A DNA stretch of 64,000 nucleotides from NCBI RefSeq assembly GCF_000192795.1, contig NW_007360615.1:62001-126000 (forward strand), given 5' to 3'. Below, piece after piece: positions 28,702 to 52,253 of the stretch. The DNA is from Vavraia culicis subsp. floridensis. Its lineage: Eukaryota; Microsporidia; Pleistophoridae. Both the position numbers and the translations under genes were made by a program. Position 1 is the first letter of the stretch, and the number at the start of each line of letters is the position of its first letter. The notes beneath the pieces are model-generated. The model saw nothing but the letters and a program-made list of their open reading frames with translations. It did no database searches and was not told where the DNA came from.

Positions 28702-31293
28702 CTAGAAGCACACCAGGATCACAAACACAATGCCGAAGGAGGTCAGCGCGAACGCAAGCTCCTCATAGTCCTTCTTCGCCTTACAAATCTTCTTGATCTT
28801 CTTCTTGCACTTCTCATTTGCCTTCTCCTCCTTCCGCTTCGTGTTCAGTCGCAAGAAGTTGTTCACCCTGTTCTTTACGCTGCCTTTTTCTTGCTCAAAG
28901 AAAATCGCGCATTCCAGAAAGTCTCTGTAGATGGGAAAGAGTGCGGTGTACGATATCTCGACGAGCTGCTGCTGCAGATCTTCAAGGAACCTTTTCATGG
29001 CATACACAGGCACGTACAGCCGGTTAGGCTGCGAGAAATGTGTCTCAATAAACAGCAGCTTGTTGATAAGATTCTTAAACACATCTATTTTGTGGGTTAC
29101 CTTGCTGTCACTGCCCTCCATGTACTTCTGCAGCTGTGCGACCACCACGCTCAGCTGCTCATAGTTCTCCTCAAATTTACGCTCTATGAATGAAAGAGCA
29201 TCGTGCTTGTCCGTCTCCTGCTGCTCATTCAGGATGTCTACAACCTCTTCCACATCAAAAAGATTCTTTTTGTTGCAGTTCGGCACATCCATGAGCACAC
29301 ACTTCTTGGCGAGTGCCTGTGCATACACCATGCTCACAATGCCTATGAAAATGTTGCCGATCAGAATCACCAACAGGATCAGCTTGAAAATTGGAATTAT
29401 GTCGAGCAGATTGCAAATCATAAAGATGAAGATTGTCAGGCATATCAGGCCTTGTAGTATCATAAATACCTGTATTTTTACGAGATTTTGTGTTTCTTGC
29501 AGATCAAACGGTGACTTATGTTCTGTCCGCTTTTCCGCCTCAAACTTTTCATTATTAAGTCCTGCAAATTTTACGTCTTCTGCTTTTAAAGGCTCATAGA
29601 TTGCGCTGTTGCCGGTTCCTGTGCCAAGCAGGGCACTGAAAAATCCACCATTTGGTCTCCTGTCCGTGGTTGATGGGCCAGGTAACAAATTCAGCGCGTT
29701 AACCTTGGTGCTAGAGCTGGGCATTCCTAGTGCAATGCCCTTGTGGCCTAAACCGGGCAACAGATTCACAGCGCTGTCCTTAACCGTGTCCAGCGCATTT
29801 ACCACGTTGTTCGCAGTCCCTGTGCCTGCTACCAAATTCGCAGCGCTGTCCTTAAGACCGATGTCAAAAACACTCGGTCTACCGTTCACACCATATCCCT
29901 CTTGTAAACGATCCCCGTTCCCCAGATAAAATTTGATACTGCCCGTTGAACCGTCTCCCGAAATGTTTTTCTGCCCTTTTGTGATCCTTAAGAAGCCTTC
30001 CAACACGTCCACAATACCAATACGCTCCCCCACATCTTTCTTCAGCTCTTGCATATCTATTTTGTACAGATCTGCGCTAATATCTGCATTAGAGAGCACA
30101 TCACCCACATCAGCGCTCGCCCTCAGGAAATTCTCGAAATTGTCCTCGAACAGCCTCAAATCCTCCGCCACGTACTTTTTTGTTTTCTTGAGCGATGCGA
30201 GCAGCGATTTGGTGCGATTGACTGCGTTCTCTTTGCGAAGCATCGTCTGTTTGAGTGATATTATGAATGATTTCTGTTCAAATGTGTCGTTGTACATCGT
30301 CTTTGTGTTTGCTAGTGCCTCTGACACCTCCCGTGGGGTGCTCTCGTCTTTCAATACGCCGTTTTCTGTTCCTTTCGGCCTATCCGTGTCATTGATCGGT
30401 GTGTCCTGTGCCGGAGTATCAGAGCTATTCGGCGGTGAGTTGTTTGCGGGCACACCATTTCCACTTTTTTTACCCACCTTTTTTATCACGACCTGTCTAC
30501 TTACCACATTTTTTCTTTCTTTGGCATCCTTTCCTTCCCTTATTGCATCCGTTCTTTGGCCACTTGCCTTATCTGCCATCGCTAGTCCGCCATCATTCAG
30601 CATCTTGCTGCCTATTCGTGTGCTCTCCTTCATGTTCTGGCTATATTCCATTTCATTTTCGTGGTTATCATCTTCGTCATTGTCATTCGTTCCTGTTCCA
30701 TTATCCGTTCCCATCTTAGCATTTGTTTCGTTCGCTGCTCTAGCACCATTTACGCTCTCACTTGCTGCTTTAGCACCATTTACGTTCTCACTTGCTGCTC
30801 TAGCACCATTTACGTTCTCATTTGCTGCTCTAGCATCGTCTCCAACTCGTCCTTCACTCAGTTCATCTTTAACCGCCTTGCCCTCGCCCATTTCACCGCT
30901 TCCCACCTTTCCATTATCATCCTTAGGCCGTCTAAACAAGTAAAGAATCTTTTCCTTCACATAGCTGTTCCTGATACCGCCCACTCCAATCACATCTCTC
31001 CATTTATTCCCACTCACGTCCATCAGCATCCCAACCCGAAAACTCCTCTCCAAACAAAAACCCGAGTAAATCAAAATACCGCCCATCACGAACGGCAACA
31101 GCCCGGTCTGTCTCTTCAACCTTATAACACGCACAACAAGTGCAAAGAATGAAATAAGTGTAACGATGACCACCAGCCTGAAGAAGCGTGGATTGTTGAG
31201 CTGGTTGTACAGCGTAGACATGATCGTCTTTTGGTGGTGGAAGGTGAGTGCAGGACCTAGAAAGTATTCTCTGAGTGATGATGGTATGGTCAT
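28702..31293 (-). CDS. Large multi-pass membrane protein, function unknown
   Basis: The 863-residue product has five probable membrane segments: two near the N-terminus (about 39-57 and 65-79), two close together in the middle (around FMILQGLICLTIFIFMICNL and FKLILLVILIGNIFIGIVSM) and one at the extreme C-terminus (ALTSFGIVFVILVCF). The first large loop is Asn/Gly/Asp-rich and holds a 10-residue repeat (NVNGARAASE-like). The second loop is charged and probably coiled coil, with several Cys (CVLMDVPNC, LECAIFF, CKKKIKKIC). I do not recognise the family; the five-segment, two-loop plan is reminiscent of prominin or Prm1, but I see no shared motif. The start is uncertain between 31293 (863 aa) and 31221 (839 aa); the frame is open to 31479. 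Confidence 0.75.
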   Translation of the reverse strand: MTIPSSLREYFLGPALTFHHQKTIMSTLYNQLNNPRFFRLVVIVTLISFFALVVRVIRLKRQTGLLPFVMGGILIYSGFCLERSFRVGMLMDVSGNKWRDVIGVGGIRNSYVKEKILYLFRRPKDDNGKVGSGEMGEGKAVKDELSEGRVGDDARAANENVNGARAASENVNGAKAASESVNGARAANETNAKMGTDNGTGTNDNDEDDNHENEMEYSQNMKESTRIGSKMLNDGGLAMADKASGQRTDAIREGKDAKERKNVVSRQVVIKKVGKKSGNGVPANNSPPNSSDTPAQDTPINDTDRPKGTENGVLKDESTPREVSEALANTKTMYNDTFEQKSFIISLKQTMLRKENAVNRTKSLLASLKKTKKYVAEDLRLFEDNFENFLRASADVGDVLSNADISADLYKIDMQELKKDVGERIGIVDVLEGFLRITKGQKNISGDGSTGSIKFYLGNGDRLQEGYGVNGRPSVFDIGLKDSAANLVAGTGTANNVVNALDTVKDSAVNLLPGLGHKGIALGMPSSSTKVNALNLLPGPSTTDRRPNGGFFSALLGTGTGNSAIYEPLKAEDVKFAGLNNEKFEAEKRTEHKSPFDLQETQNLVKIQVFMILQGLICLTIFIFMICNLLDIIPIFKLILLVILIGNIFIGIVSMVYAQALAKKCVLMDVPNCNKKNLFDVEEVVDILNEQQETDKHDALSFIERKFEENYEQLSVVVAQLQKYMEGSDSKVTHKIDVFKNLINKLLFIETHFSQPNRLYVPVYAMKRFLEDLQQQLVEISYTALFPIYRDFLECAIFFEQEKGSVKNRVNNFLRLNTKRKEEKANEKCKKKIKKICKAKKDYEELAFALTSFGIVFVILVCF
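30734..30835 (-). repeat. 30-bp in-frame repeat in membrane protein gene
   Basis: Units start at 30734, 30764, 30794 and 30824 and code for ten-residue ARAANENVNG-type repeats in the first large loop. The unit length preserves the frame. Confidence 0.93.
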
Positions 31294-40811: not shown

Positions 40812-42299
40812 TCAAAATGTGGTACGTCTGAATACGAAGGACCGTCTTGCCCGCTCATAAAAATCTTCAATACGTGCGTTAATACGCAACAATTGCCAGG
40901 GTGCCACAAAGGGCGCTGCGCACTCACGAAGCACCATCACGATCCTACGCTTCATCATGGCACGGATGAGAACATGTGATGATCTGTTGTATCGATACGC
41001 GCTGGTCTTGAGAGCGTTTGTCCATTTCTTAAACGACCTCTTGGTGCTGTACGTTCTATCGGTACACACATTAATGCTGTTCTTGATGTAGAATAGGAAG
41101 CCTATGATGTAAATGATATCGATGAGCCTGAGGACAAGGGTGGTGTGGCGGGTGATCTGCAGTTCAAGACGGTATTGGATGAGCTCAAGGTTGAGGAGGC
41201 CTCTCTGGTACACAAACATTTTGAGGAGCACGAGCACAAGCACGAAGATGGTGGTGGAGCACACAATCAGCACACATTTCATGAGAACGCGCGCAATGCC
41301 GTGCTCGTTCGTGCGTAGCATGCGTAGCGCGTGTTTGTAGCTGCGGTGTACCGCGGCCTTGTACACGTGCGGTAGCACGCCGTACCGCCTCAGACGCACG
41401 ATGCTCAGCGGAGAGTAGTCGTAAGCGAGAACGTGTGCGAGACTGCTGCCCGTACTGATCATATCAACGGTGCGTGAGATGAGCAGCAGCGTACATAGAA
41501 TGGGCGAGCACAGCACAAGGCCTGCGATCACGAGATAATTCTTTCTCTTCATGTGGGTGTGCTCGGTGCGTGTGATCGTGTTCTGGTCCAGCGGAAAGAG
41601 GTACCGTACAAGCCGCTCAAGGAGCGTGGTGTAGAACACATTTGTGACTGTCTCTTTGCGCACGAGGTGTGCGTAGAGATCGTCCTCGAACGAAATTATG
41701 CGTTTTATGCGCTTTCTCGTTATTTTAACGTCATAGTGCCGGCTAAACACCGCTTTTATGCATCGGAGGATGCGTGCGAATTTAACCTGTGGCTGAAAGC
41801 GGTACACGTACTTGAAAATGAGGTACCCCTTGTAACGATGGCGTACAGCGCCCACGAAGAACACGGTCTGGTACACCAGCATAACTGCGATGAGCACCGC
41901 CATCCACCGGGATACAAGCACCACCCTGAACACCTTCTTGTTGAAGTTCTGCAGGTAGTTGAGAATGATGGAGAACACCGTGATGAACAGCACCATGGTC
42001 AGGATTTTGTTCATCTTAGTGAACAAGTACACACGCAACGGGCACGTGTAGTAGCTGTACGTCAATTTGATGAACTGGGTAAAAGGCATTCTTCCCACAA
42101 ACTGCCGTATGCATACATGCGTGTTGCGCTCGATCTTGCCCAGCTTCTCGCTCAGGTAGTACACCTCGGAAGACTCGGTATCAAAGTATGATTTCTTTAG
42201 GCGCATGTTCATTTGTTCCTTCTCTTTGATGTGCGCACGTTTCCTCTGGTCGTGTTTATGCGAATGCTCACTTTGTTTTTGTTTGTGCATGAAACGCAT
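40812..42299 (-). CDS. ATG9: Atg9-like autophagy lipid scramblase
   Basis: Atg9 is the only core autophagy protein with several membrane segments; it scrambles lipids and seeds the autophagosome membrane. The 495-residue product reproduces the Atg9 core in order: two N-terminal membrane segments (about 97-115, 133-151); a cytosolic part with FEDDLYAHLVRKE where Atg9 has a lDIxxRIxRKEN-like motif; a segment at about 255-275; the LPHVYKAAVHRSYKHA motif (309-324), matching NEL-(P/E)-H-x-x-x-x-R-L-x-R-x-YK-x-A; two further hydrophobic segments (338-360, 384-405); and a C-terminal APFVAPW...IEDFYE block matching SPxxxPxxL...IxDFFRNF. The start is uncertain: 42299 is the first Met after the 58-bp array; 42212 is also possible. 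No CCC motif is present. Disordered tails of fungal Atg9 are missing. Confidence 0.75.
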   Translation of the reverse strand: MRFMHKQKQSEHSHKHDQRKRAHIKEKEQMNMRLKKSYFDTESSEVYYLSEKLGKIERNTHVCIRQFVGRMPFTQFIKLTYSYYTCPLRVYLFTKMNKILTMVLFITVFSIILNYLQNFNKKVFRVVLVSRWMAVLIAVMLVYQTVFFVGAVRHRYKGYLIFKYVYRFQPQVKFARILRCIKAVFSRHYDVKITRKRIKRIISFEDDLYAHLVRKETVTNVFYTTLLERLVRYLFPLDQNTITRTEHTHMKRKNYLVIAGLVLCSPILCTLLLISRTVDMISTGSSLAHVLAYDYSPLSIVRLRRYGVLPHVYKAAVHRSYKHALRMLRTNEHGIARVLMKCVLIVCSTTIFVLVLVLLKMFVYQRGLLNLELIQYRLELQITRHTTLVLRLIDIIYIIGFLFYIKNSINVCTDRTYSTKRSFKKWTNALKTSAYRYNRSSHVLIRAMMKRRIVMVLRECAAPFVAPWQLLRINARIEDFYERARRSFVFRRTTF

Positions 42300-42360
42300 T
42301 GATCGTGGATTTGTAAAGGAAGTGCATTTATCAATGCATGGGCACGGATGGAAAATGTGT

Positions 42361-42562
42361 GATCCGGGGTTGAAGAACGCGGCAATCATAAAACGGTCCT
42401 TTACCACGGTTTGTCTGTGATCCTGGGTTGAAGAACGCGGCAATCATAAAACGGTCCTTTACCACGGTTTGTCTGTGATCCTGGGTTGAAGAACGCGGCA
42501 ATCATAAAACGGTCCTTTACCACGGTTTCTCTGTGATCCGGGGTTGAAGAACGCGGCAATCG
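42361..42562. repeat. 58-bp tandem repeat, 3.5 copies, upstream of ATG9
   Basis: Copies start at 42361, 42419, 42477 and 42535, differing at one or two sites (GATCCGGGG/GATCCTGGG, TTTGTC/TTTCTC). The unit includes TTGAAGAACGCGGCAATC and AAACGGTCCTTTACCACGG. The Atg9 frame stays open through part of it, which would add a repeat-coded N-terminus if an upstream start were used. Confidence 0.96.
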
Positions 42563-46650: not shown

Positions 46651-47235
46651 GTTTGATGGGATAAAATTAAAAAAATGATTTTCTCATTTACTGTGCCATC
46701 AAAACAGAGGATGACCTGCAACACGTGCACGTGCTTGATCGGTAGTGGATACGTAGCAGTTCACGTGCTTGATCGGTGATATATGCATTGCACATGCTGG
46801 TCCTTCCTAATATCGCACAGCATCCTTAGCCAATGAACAAGAATCTTACGCTAATTTTCCTCGTACCATTTGTGTGATATTACAAGGCATTCTCTGCAGG
46901 GACAGGTAAGTGAAGTGTACGGAACAGCGCATGAAAATAAAAAAATACTTTTTTAACGATAAAATGCATAGCGTACTTAACGAGATGGCACACTGCTGAT
47001 AAGCAGACGAGTTTTAGCGCATATGTGAATGAGAAGGCATACCAACGATTTATATCGCTTCTATCCGATCCTGGGCAAAAGATGGGCGGAAATTGCAATT
47101 ACTAAGCACGCTATATCTGAAAGAGTGTTCCATCGCAAATGGGACATAGCATATACGTGAGGAGTACCAGATGCGAATTTTATGCCCTCTCACCACTTTG
47201 AACACGGTAAAAAAGTTGTGCCGGTGCTGCACCCC
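46651..47235. other. Intergenic 0.58 kb
   Basis: This divergent interval between Ypt1 and Trm5 shows no gene. It includes a short duplication of GTGCTTGATCGGT near 46730 and 46760. Confidence 0.5.
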
Positions 47236-48864
47236 ATGCACAAATTATTTGCTGTTTACCTCGAAACCGGGCAAATCGGAAGTGCTATGCTCAAATACGG
47301 GCAAATCATGTTTAAACAGAAAGGTGTGCCAAGAATAATAGACATGGAGAAAGAGTACAGAGAGTTTACTGTTGAGATTGATGGCGGGGAGAAAAAGAAC
47401 GGGAAGTACCTGCTCATCAGTGAATATGTGGAGGGAAGTGTTTGTGTAACACTGGTTATCAAGGCTGAGGAGGCTTTTGACCGCTTTTCTTTAAAAGTGC
47501 TAGAAAAAAGGAAAAATGAAAATAAAGCACGGTTTGTAGACAGCGCAGATATTATCAGCAGAATGTGCGATTGTTCGAGCAAACACGGGGCGAATAGTGA
47601 GCGTGGCTTGGCTGAAGACCGCTTTTGCGAAGAAACGCGGGAGTGTGAGGAACCTGGAAGTGAAGAATATCGTGTGATATGCAAAGAAAAAGGATGGTCG
47701 CGTAAAAAAGACGAAGAGACGGGTGTAAAACAAATCACCGAAAATAACGAGAGATTGAACAGCGAGGATAAATGCACAGCGATCAAGCGAACGAAGATGA
47801 ACAGCGAGGATAAATGCACAGCGATCAAGCGAACGAAGATGAACAGCTCACCTTCTGATCAGTTCTGTACTGTTTCTGGTAAAATTGGAGATGCTAAATT
47901 TACCGGAGAAGACCGCTTCAGCGGAGAAAACGTGAAAAAGGCACCTTCGTGTTTGGAAGAGGAAGGAAACGGTGCGTTGCAGCAGGTTGATGGTGATTCT
48001 CACGTATACTCTGATATTAACGCATATCATTCATCTGATTGTTTCAAAACATACTTACGTGATTTGCTGCCTCGTTCGTTTGAGGTTCTCGGCAGAACAA
48101 TGATCCTCAATCTCAGCAACGAGCAGAGAAAGTACAAAAAGGAAATCGCAGAATATTTTTTTGAGCTGAAGAGCTGTAAAACGATTTTTTTGAAGAATGA
48201 CGTTGTGAAGGAAACGTACAGGACCACTGAGTACGAATTATTGCTGGGCGAGGATAAGAAAGATGTTGTATACACAGAAAACGCTATACGATTCGAGTTC
48301 AATATCTGTGATGTCTATTTTAACAGCAAGCTGAGCGGTGCGCGTGAACAGTTAGTGGCAAAGTTCAGGAAAAACGATGTCGTTGCCGATCTGTTCTGCG
48401 GGATCGGCCCTATAAGCACGCAAGCACTCAAAAAGGGATGTTATGTCATTGCCAACGACATTAACCCTAAAGCGATCGAATACTTCAAGAACATCGTAAA
48501 GATTAATGGAATTGCAGCGAATTACGAGGTGTACAACGAGGATGCCAAGGACGTAATTTCAAACCTAGTGAACCGGGAGATAAACCATTTTGTCTTTAAT
48601 CTGCCCGAGCTGAGCATTTACTTCATCGAGCACGTGAAAGTATTTGCAAAGAGCGAGCTGCACTGCTATTTTTTTTGCAGAAAGAACCGCGATGTGATTG
48701 CGTACTTGCAGGAGGAGATCGGGCTGGTGGTACCGAGGGGGTGTATCAAGGAATGCAGGAATGTGGCACCGTCCAAGTTGTACTACTACATGAACGTTAA
48801 GGTCAAGGATTTGCAATGGCTGGACAGTGATCCGCACCCAACTGATAAGTCGATGGAAGCGTAA
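47236..48864 (+). CDS. TRM5: tRNA (guanine37-N1)-methyltransferase Trm5
   Basis: Trm5 methylates G37 next to the anticodon, preventing frameshifting. The class I methyltransferase core is at the C-terminus: VYFNSKLSGAREQLV before the domain, SAM motif I DLFCGIGP (385-392), ANDINP (406-411) and the active-site NLPE motif (455-458), all as in Trm5. At 542 residues it is longer than yeast Trm5, because a hydrophilic stretch of about 160 residues (roughly 110-270) is inserted after the N-terminal domain. It includes two adjacent copies of NSEDKCTAIKRTKM. I start at 47236 because CCCC directly precedes it; the frame is open to 47182. Confidence 0.9.
   Translation: MHKLFAVYLETGQIGSAMLKYGQIMFKQKGVPRIIDMEKEYREFTVEIDGGEKKNGKYLLISEYVEGSVCVTLVIKAEEAFDRFSLKVLEKRKNENKARFVDSADIISRMCDCSSKHGANSERGLAEDRFCEETRECEEPGSEEYRVICKEKGWSRKKDEETGVKQITENNERLNSEDKCTAIKRTKMNSEDKCTAIKRTKMNSSPSDQFCTVSGKIGDAKFTGEDRFSGENVKKAPSCLEEEGNGALQQVDGDSHVYSDINAYHSSDCFKTYLRDLLPRSFEVLGRTMILNLSNEQRKYKKEIAEYFFELKSCKTIFLKNDVVKETYRTTEYELLLGEDKKDVVYTENAIRFEFNICDVYFNSKLSGAREQLVAKFRKNDVVADLFCGIGPISTQALKKGCYVIANDINPKAIEYFKNIVKINGIAANYEVYNEDAKDVISNLVNREINHFVFNLPELSIYFIEHVKVFAKSELHCYFFCRKNRDVIAYLQEEIGLVVPRGCIKECRNVAPSKLYYYMNVKVKDLQWLDSDPHPTDKSMEA
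47758..47846 (+). repeat. 42-bp in-frame duplication inside TRM5
   Basis: Two perfect 42-bp copies start at 47758 and 47800, giving a duplicated 14-residue segment in the low-complexity insertion. Confidence 0.95.
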
Positions 48865-51785: not shown

Positions 51786-52253
51786 ATGGTCGAGACACTC
51801 ACAAAATTCAAGATCTACCCGCAACAGCCGCAGATATACAACAACCCAAAAAACACTGAGAAGAAGAGGTACTTCAAGAAGGTTGGGTATGGCATCACGG
51901 TGCCTGAGACCGCCATAAACGGCACCTATATCGACAAGAACTGCCCATTCACAGGAAGCGTAAGACTATACGGCAAATTCGTCAAGGCTGAGGTGCTGAA
52001 GATGAAGCAGATACGAACGATCATCTGCATAAAAAAGTACTTTTTCTACGTAAAGAAGTATAAGAGATATGAGAGGAGACAGAAGAAGTTTGCCGTGCAT
52101 CTGCCACCGTGCTTTGAGGGTCTTGTGAACGTGGGTGACATTGTGAACTGTGCACTTGTCAGGCCATTGTCTAAGACAAAGCGATTTGTGGTGGTGGGCG
52201 TTGAGAACAAGATAGTACCGGAGAAAAAATATAAAACATTGGAGGATCTTTAA
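51786..52253 (+). CDS. RPS11: 40S ribosomal protein S11 (uS17)
   Basis: This codes for uS17 of the small cytosolic subunit, 155 residues. Landmarks are INGTYIDKNCPFTGSV, KMKQIRTIICIKKYFFYVKKY, VHLPPCFEGLVNVGDIV and CALVRPLSKTKRFVV, all matching the family in order. I start at 51786 because CCC lies at 51778-51780 and the N-terminus then has normal length. An AT-rich run (ATTTTAAAAATTT) about 20 bases upstream is the likely promoter box. No intron is visible. Confidence 0.95.
   Translation: MVETLTKFKIYPQQPQIYNNPKNTEKKRYFKKVGYGITVPETAINGTYIDKNCPFTGSVRLYGKFVKAEVLKMKQIRTIICIKKYFFYVKKYKRYERRQKKFAVHLPPCFEGLVNVGDIVNCALVRPLSKTKRFVVVGVENKIVPEKKYKTLEDL

Follow-up and report, generated by a model that had tools for sequence, protein, structure and literature searches.

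The locus described here raises a question with two parts: can a genome of microsporidian type encode an Atg9-like protein and, if so, what would such a protein be kept for? Atg9 scrambles lipids and Atg9 vesicles seed autophagosomes, according to the part of PMC8161075 that was available. The available sections of three papers describe the loss in microsporidia of the majority of the autophagy machinery (PMC12239571), of much of autophagy (PMC3486916) and of key autophagy machinery (PMC8615682); in those of a fourth, the conserved autophagy sets have exceptions, microsporidia included, and the ATG domains named there omit ATG9 (PMC7539657). In the accessible text of PMC3879972, mention of autophagy was not found. 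Judged by titles and the starts of abstracts, none of the listed matches in the open-access literature (a scope outside which most subscription literature falls) reports a microsporidian Atg9; judged in the same manner, none of the matches there is on the subject of a microsporidian scramblase.

The gene and its genomic setting

The DNA analyzed, henceforth the window, is a 64-kb stretch (positions 62001-126000 of contig C12 of the assembly). A preliminary description of it had placed an Atg9-like protein at 40812-42299. A stop-free frame of 495 aa (ORF translation) does occupy these positions; it lies on the minus strand, which the description had left unstated, and its start probably needs correction. 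The same frame reaches an upstream ATG at 42389, so that the longest ATG ORF in the ORF listing (40812..42389, minus strand) encodes 525 aa, with Met31 at 42299; residues are numbered below along this long ORF. The upstream ATG, which is the first in frame, is held within a tandem array of 58-bp units (3.5 copies; 42358..42561, found by repeat analysis) located immediately upstream of the gene. Codon scores are low for 42300-42389 (−0.095) and for the following 29 codons (−0.062), compared with −0.041 to 0.110 in 14 Pfam-supported genes and 0.088 in the ORF at 40812-42299. Codon evidence on the start is weak because the stretches are short and the scores of the controls, five antisense or overlapping ORFs (−0.087 to 0.023), overlap the range of real genes. 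Alignment with P0004, a related protein considered below, begins around residue 54. Given an upstream ATG within the tandem array, low codon scores (if weak as evidence) and the point at which the P0004 alignment begins, Met60 (42212) appears a likelier start than 42299. With this inferred start codon, the likeliest coding extent is 40812..42212 on the minus strand (466 aa), for which the evidence is the Pfam ATG9 match, the weak codon scores and the P0004 alignment. The possibility of a pseudogene was rejected, as the frame is intact and has relatives at 41-47%.

Minisatellite-like tandem arrays are frequent in the window, where Tandem Repeats Finder reports 31 rows, some of them overlapping. 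Two other ORFs deserve mention in their own right. One, at 47182-48864, encodes a TYW2-type tRNA methyltransferase (matches to the TRM5-TYW2 and TYW2 N-terminal families), found here in a microsporidian genome; the other, an 863-aa ORF at 28702-31293 on the minus strand, matches no Pfam family over its cut-off.

The microsporidian character of the genome, also put forward in the preliminary description, was borne out. TLC/NTT nucleotide transporters are found at two places in the assembly (E 4.6e-55 and 2.9e-48), and NTT genes have been reported for all microsporidian genomes and Rozella, as stated in the accessible part of PMC5923384. The best PDB matches of ribosomal protein uS17, encoded in the window at 51786-52253, are 7qca (180 bits), 6zu5 (165), 7qep (133), 8g5z (133) and 6rm3 (127), the rest scoring 124 or less. 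We take 7qca, 6zu5, 7qep and 6rm3 to be the ribosomes of Spraguea, Paranosema, Encephalitozoon and Vairimorpha. Since two NTT places are present and uS17 is closest to these microsporidian ribosomes, the genome is, as far as its sequences tell, that of a canonical microsporidian. An Rfam model of microsporidian SSU rRNA had no match in the assembly, from which the rRNA may be missing. Contamination was considered and rejected, as the 126-kb contig also carries the microsporidian-like uS17.

Relationship of the protein to Atg9

The preliminary description had proposed two checks of the Atg9 assignment: a search with the APG9 profile and a comparison of predicted folds. In the former, the Pfam ATG9 profile (PF04109; curated cut-off, 27 bits) matched the long ORF with 29.5 bits (E 4.8e-7) and the ORF trimmed to Met60 with 30.5 bits (E 2.4e-7). 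The matching stretch (residues 277-500; 40890..41561, minus strand) corresponds to positions 230-443 of the 478 in the profile and is confined to the second half of the protein. No other of the 26 window ORFs scanned (61 are listed) matches ATG9, and the profile finds a single place in the 5.63 Mb assembly and none in 14 prokaryote control genomes. Two additional matches of the long ORF were under their respective cut-offs: SMP (E 0.0095), which is not listed when the start is trimmed, and AAA_lid (E 0.054), which is beyond the threshold used for the trimmed ORF.

When relatives of the window protein (P0002) were searched among 5.77 billion proteins, three were found at E ≤ 1: P0003 (99%), P0004 (47%) and P0005 (41%). 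P0005 is above the Pfam ATG9 cut-off (31.2 bits) and P0004 under it (17.7 bits, E 0.0019). Wider searches, either with an alignment as query (E ≤ 10) or with S. pombe Atg9 added (E ≤ 0.001), returned the same three proteins only, from 7103 candidates each. No fungal Atg9 came back in these searches; hence the database says little on the distribution of the protein. Viral contigs yielded 96 pattern-matching stretches and no relatives.

Comparison with known Atg9 proteins relied on three solved cores, those of S. pombe Atg9, human ATG9A and human ATG9B, to which identity is 15-21%. A PDB search with the single sequence returned only human ATG9B (E 0.19), in an alignment that takes in the LPH block, and a search with the profile of the three relatives returned no chain at E ≤ 10. 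When three relatives were compared with the three solved cores using hhalign, 288 columns were aligned with an E of 0.0011 (for a single comparison) and a probability of 20.9%, both profiles being shallow. In a five-protein alignment (P0002, P0004, P0005, S. pombe Atg9 and human ATG9A), 20 columns are invariant. Of the 146 columns in which S. pombe Atg9 and human ATG9A agree, 33 are also identical in P0002, versus 15 in the best of 112 slid registers, a comparison that favors the figure of 33 because the alignment is optimized in register.

Class-preserving shuffles, 2000 per sequence, gave the same picture as an earlier run with 1000. Against the relatives' profile, S. pombe Atg9 scores 16.6 bits, which no shuffle reaches (0/2000; 1916 listed). 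Human ATG9B exceeds all shuffles by whole score and all but one by best stretch, and human ATG9A is no better than its shuffles (1323 of the 1867 listed reach its score). In the opposite direction, the best stretch of P0002 against the ATG9-core profile scores 14.0 bits, above all 2000 shuffles (the highest of the 1957 listed has 13.4); its whole score of 7.2 is reached by three of the 2000, and had been reached by none of the 1000 (982 listed) in the earlier run. The best stretch of P0005 exceeds all but two shuffles, and its whole score is reached by 90 of the 1974 listed. P0004 does not stand out: 1802 of the 1945 listed shuffles reach its whole score.

The fold comparison was less informative. 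AlphaFold models built with P0002 and two relatives (pLDDT 38.3) and with P0004 and three (pLDDT 40.3) are of very low confidence, too low for comparing folds. For the first of them, the top Foldseek match was S. pombe Atg9 (E 0.58) and the third, out of 11, was human ATG9B (E 5.9), neither being significant; for the second, no ATG9 was found among 37 matches.

The low score of the Pfam match, the fact that P0004 alone would not be called and AlphaFold models too poor to give a structure might be taken to mean that an unrelated multi-pass membrane protein of microsporidia resembles Atg9 by chance. This reading is very improbable given that two of the three distinct relatives are over the Pfam cut-off, that the search of the genome returned a single place and that S. 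pombe Atg9 scores above all of its shuffles. Altogether, the Pfam match, the order and spacing of segments described below, the hhalign comparison and the shuffle tests uphold the original assignment, and homology of the protein to Atg9 appears well supported, a conclusion in which our confidence is high.

Membrane segments and conserved blocks

Membrane segments were called by hydropathy and compared with those of the three solved cores. All coordinates in this section refer to the minus strand. Hydrophobic segments 1 (residues 129-147; 41949..42005) and 2 (residues 164-182; 41844..41900) are, by hydropathy and alignment, the counterparts of Atg9 TM1 and TM2; between their hydropathy windows lie 16 residues, versus 35 in S. 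pombe Atg9 and 46 in human ATG9A. Segment 3 (residues 286-304; 41478..41534), identified in the same manner, is the counterpart of TM3, and segment 4 (residues 371-389; 41223..41279; hydropathy) that of TM4. The start-to-start spacing of segments 3 and 4 is 85 residues, versus 84 in human ATG9A, 88 in S. pombe Atg9 and 92 in human ATG9B. Segment 5 (residues 417-435; 41085..41141; hydropathy), which is under the threshold in P0004, stands in place of the re-entrant segment of Atg9.

Two blocks were delimited by alignment. The first, LPHVYKAAVHRSYKHA (residues 339-354; 41328..41375), lies between segments 3 and 4, and its L339, H341 and A354 are identical in the five aligned proteins. The second is the C-terminal IVMVLRECAAPFVAPW...IEDFYE block (residues 483-512; 40854..40943), in which L487, E489, P497 and I507 are identical in the same five proteins; it constitutes a further hydrophobic segment above threshold in P0004 and P0005, not in P0002. 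Hence, the features listed in the preliminary description (two hydrophobic segments, the LPHVYKAAVHRSYKHA signature, further hydrophobic segments and an APFVAPW...IEDFYE end, at residue 512) are all present. The one that fails is an 'RKE motif': the letters are there, and we reject them as a motif because P0004 and P0005 do not keep them.

The protein stops 13 residues past IEDFYE and is thus without a long C-terminal tail. About 70 residues separate Met60 from segment 1, compared with about 60 in human ATG9A and about 200 in S. pombe. Since this N-terminus has about the same length as the one in human ATG9A, the predicted protein is 'reduced' in a limited manner: in its C-terminal tail relative to human and in its N-terminal region relative to S. 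pombe. A V-x-G-V-G-x-x-C-S-F/Y-A segment common to S. pombe and human is absent from P0002, P0004 and P0005; it is known here from the three solved sequences and may not define the family.

Some of these features admit a second reading, in which a descendant of Atg9 no longer scrambles lipids and serves as a structural or vesicle-sorting protein. In its favor are the strong divergence of the sequence, a short first lumenal loop, the missing shared C-terminal segment and a Pfam match that spans only half of the protein. Against it, the three relatives retain the LPH and C-terminal blocks and the majority of the membrane segments with their spacing, as fits a preserved core. We consider this reading distinctly unlikely. 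The KRE residues of human ATG9A, which we assume to be important for scrambling, correspond to GSS, GSS and GND in the relatives and to HKN in S. pombe, a pattern because of which these positions decide nothing. No paper on the importance of these residues for scrambling was found in the open-access literature.

Autophagy partners and the possible role of the protein

The preliminary description had stated that microsporidia are generally described as having lost most of the autophagy machinery, and had suggested a search for Atg2, Atg8 and Atg18 in the same genome. Profiles for ATG8 and ATG3/10 found nothing in the assembly, nor did ATG2_CAD, PROPPIN and VPS13_N at E 0.001, one VPS13_N candidate having been scored under the threshold. 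These five profiles are also silent in the prokaryote controls, so that a null result does not show absence. Rad60-SLD, a ubiquitin-like family used as positive control, detected four small ubiquitin-like places. The profile of ribosomal protein uL3 (L3) found no match in the assembly. Because uL3 was missed as well, the absence of the rest of the autophagy machinery, which was not detected by these profiles, must be considered provisional, and the described loss is supported to that extent.

Kinases were also surveyed. PI3/PI4 kinases are found at four places, whose best matches are ATR/MEC1, PI4KA, PI4KB and yeast VPS34, one place each; the last three mark genes for both PI4-kinases and for Vps34. 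The Vps34 (L012:1273-3000, minus strand) is short, with an ORF of 575 aa in which the kinase domain is the only Pfam entry at E ≤ 0.01; its best PDB match is yeast VPS34 (E 2.8e-18). The sole PIKK found (L009:143-7015, minus strand), a protein of 2290 aa with FATC, has its nearest matches in ATR and MEC1. TOR was considered and rejected, as none is found among the four matches and the PIKK is nearest ATR/MEC1. Encephalitozoon intestinalis is described, in the available part of PMC5745459, as an exception to TOR conservation.

A residual, working autophagy pathway, whose remaining parts diverged past the profiles or are hidden by gaps in either the assembly or the search, would account for an Atg9 in such a genome, and the presence of Vps34 might be invoked in its favor. 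Fourteen proteasome subunits are expected. Because 13 rather than 14 proteasome places were found and uL3 was missed, the search or the assembly does have gaps; furthermore, since the Atg9-like protein barely passes its cut-off, autophagy partners may have diverged equally far. We nevertheless regard a residual pathway as rather unlikely. The five profiles find nothing while 13 proteasome, four ubiquitin-like and four PI3/PI4-kinase places are detected, and no TOR is found among the four kinases, the one PIKK being nearest ATR/MEC1. In addition, autophagy does not follow from the mere presence of a PtdIns3K complex, as Giardia possibly keeps one for non-autophagy processes (PMC10104450, in the part available), and much of autophagy is described as lost in microsporidia in the accessible parts of the literature cited at the outset (PMC12239571, PMC3486916, PMC7539657, PMC8615682).

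Because the core autophagy-tagging genes were not found, the protein may have been retained for a different task in membranes. The explanation that we prefer, with about an even chance of being right, is that it is a divergent, reduced Atg9 orthologue of a canonical microsporidian, in which it is retained as a scramblase or a factor of membrane supply although no Atg8 system is detected. The Atg8-free membrane-supply role, taken by itself, is a prediction that we hold to be evenly balanced. By analogy with Atg9, the protein would assemble into a trimer on vesicles derived from the Golgi or from endosomes, and the trimer would equilibrate phospholipids between the two leaflets; such equilibration may let a membrane grow when vesicles or a lipid-transfer protein feed it. 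The long cytosolic tails of Atg9 bind autophagy-initiation factors and differ between species. Because the microsporidian protein has neither a long C-terminal tail of the human type nor a long N-terminal region of the S. pombe type, it probably works without the usual initiation partners, and probably without Atg8 conjugation as well. Its membrane core would thus be kept for lipid redistribution, in the supply of membranes that the parasite itself is growing. As to the destination, the membranes of the spore or polar tube, which the preliminary description mentioned as an example, are one guess among several.

A tentative evolutionary scenario, to which we give somewhat less credit, is that the lineage lost both Atg8 conjugation and Atg2-Atg18 and kept the membrane core of Atg9 as a free-standing scramblase feeding its own internal membranes. 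If this were true, the most basic job of Atg9 would be membrane supply and not autophagy. An Atg9 kept in such a genome would allow what Atg9 does as a membrane protein to be told apart from its part in Atg8-dependent autophagy. It would also provide both a naturally reduced Atg9 core and a means of marking the vesicle system, still poorly known, by which microsporidian membranes are built.

Compared with Atg9, ATG9A and ATG9B (PF04109), the protein shares the order of hydrophobic segments, the spacing of segments 3 and 4, the LPH block, the C-terminal E...P...I-x-D-F block and a Pfam match over the cut-off. Unlike human ATG9A, whose chain runs about 300 residues past the core, it has about 466 aa and no long C-terminal tail; unlike S. 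pombe Atg9, it has a shorter N-terminal region; and it differs from both in its first lumenal loop, most of which is missing, and in the lack of a VGVG..CS(F/Y)A end. Its setting is also unlike that of the Atg9 family, as it is found in a genome where ATG8, ATG3/10, ATG2 and PROPPIN are undetected. A parasite with a reduced ATG set does have parallels among parasitic protists, such as Toxoplasma with its TgATG9 and others. Ciliates seem to be without ATG9, and Plasmodium has no ATG9 homologue and keeps the apicomplexan ATG8, which is critical, according to the available part of a review (PMC8161075); the microsporidian would present the opposite arrangement, with ATG9 kept and ATG8 not found.
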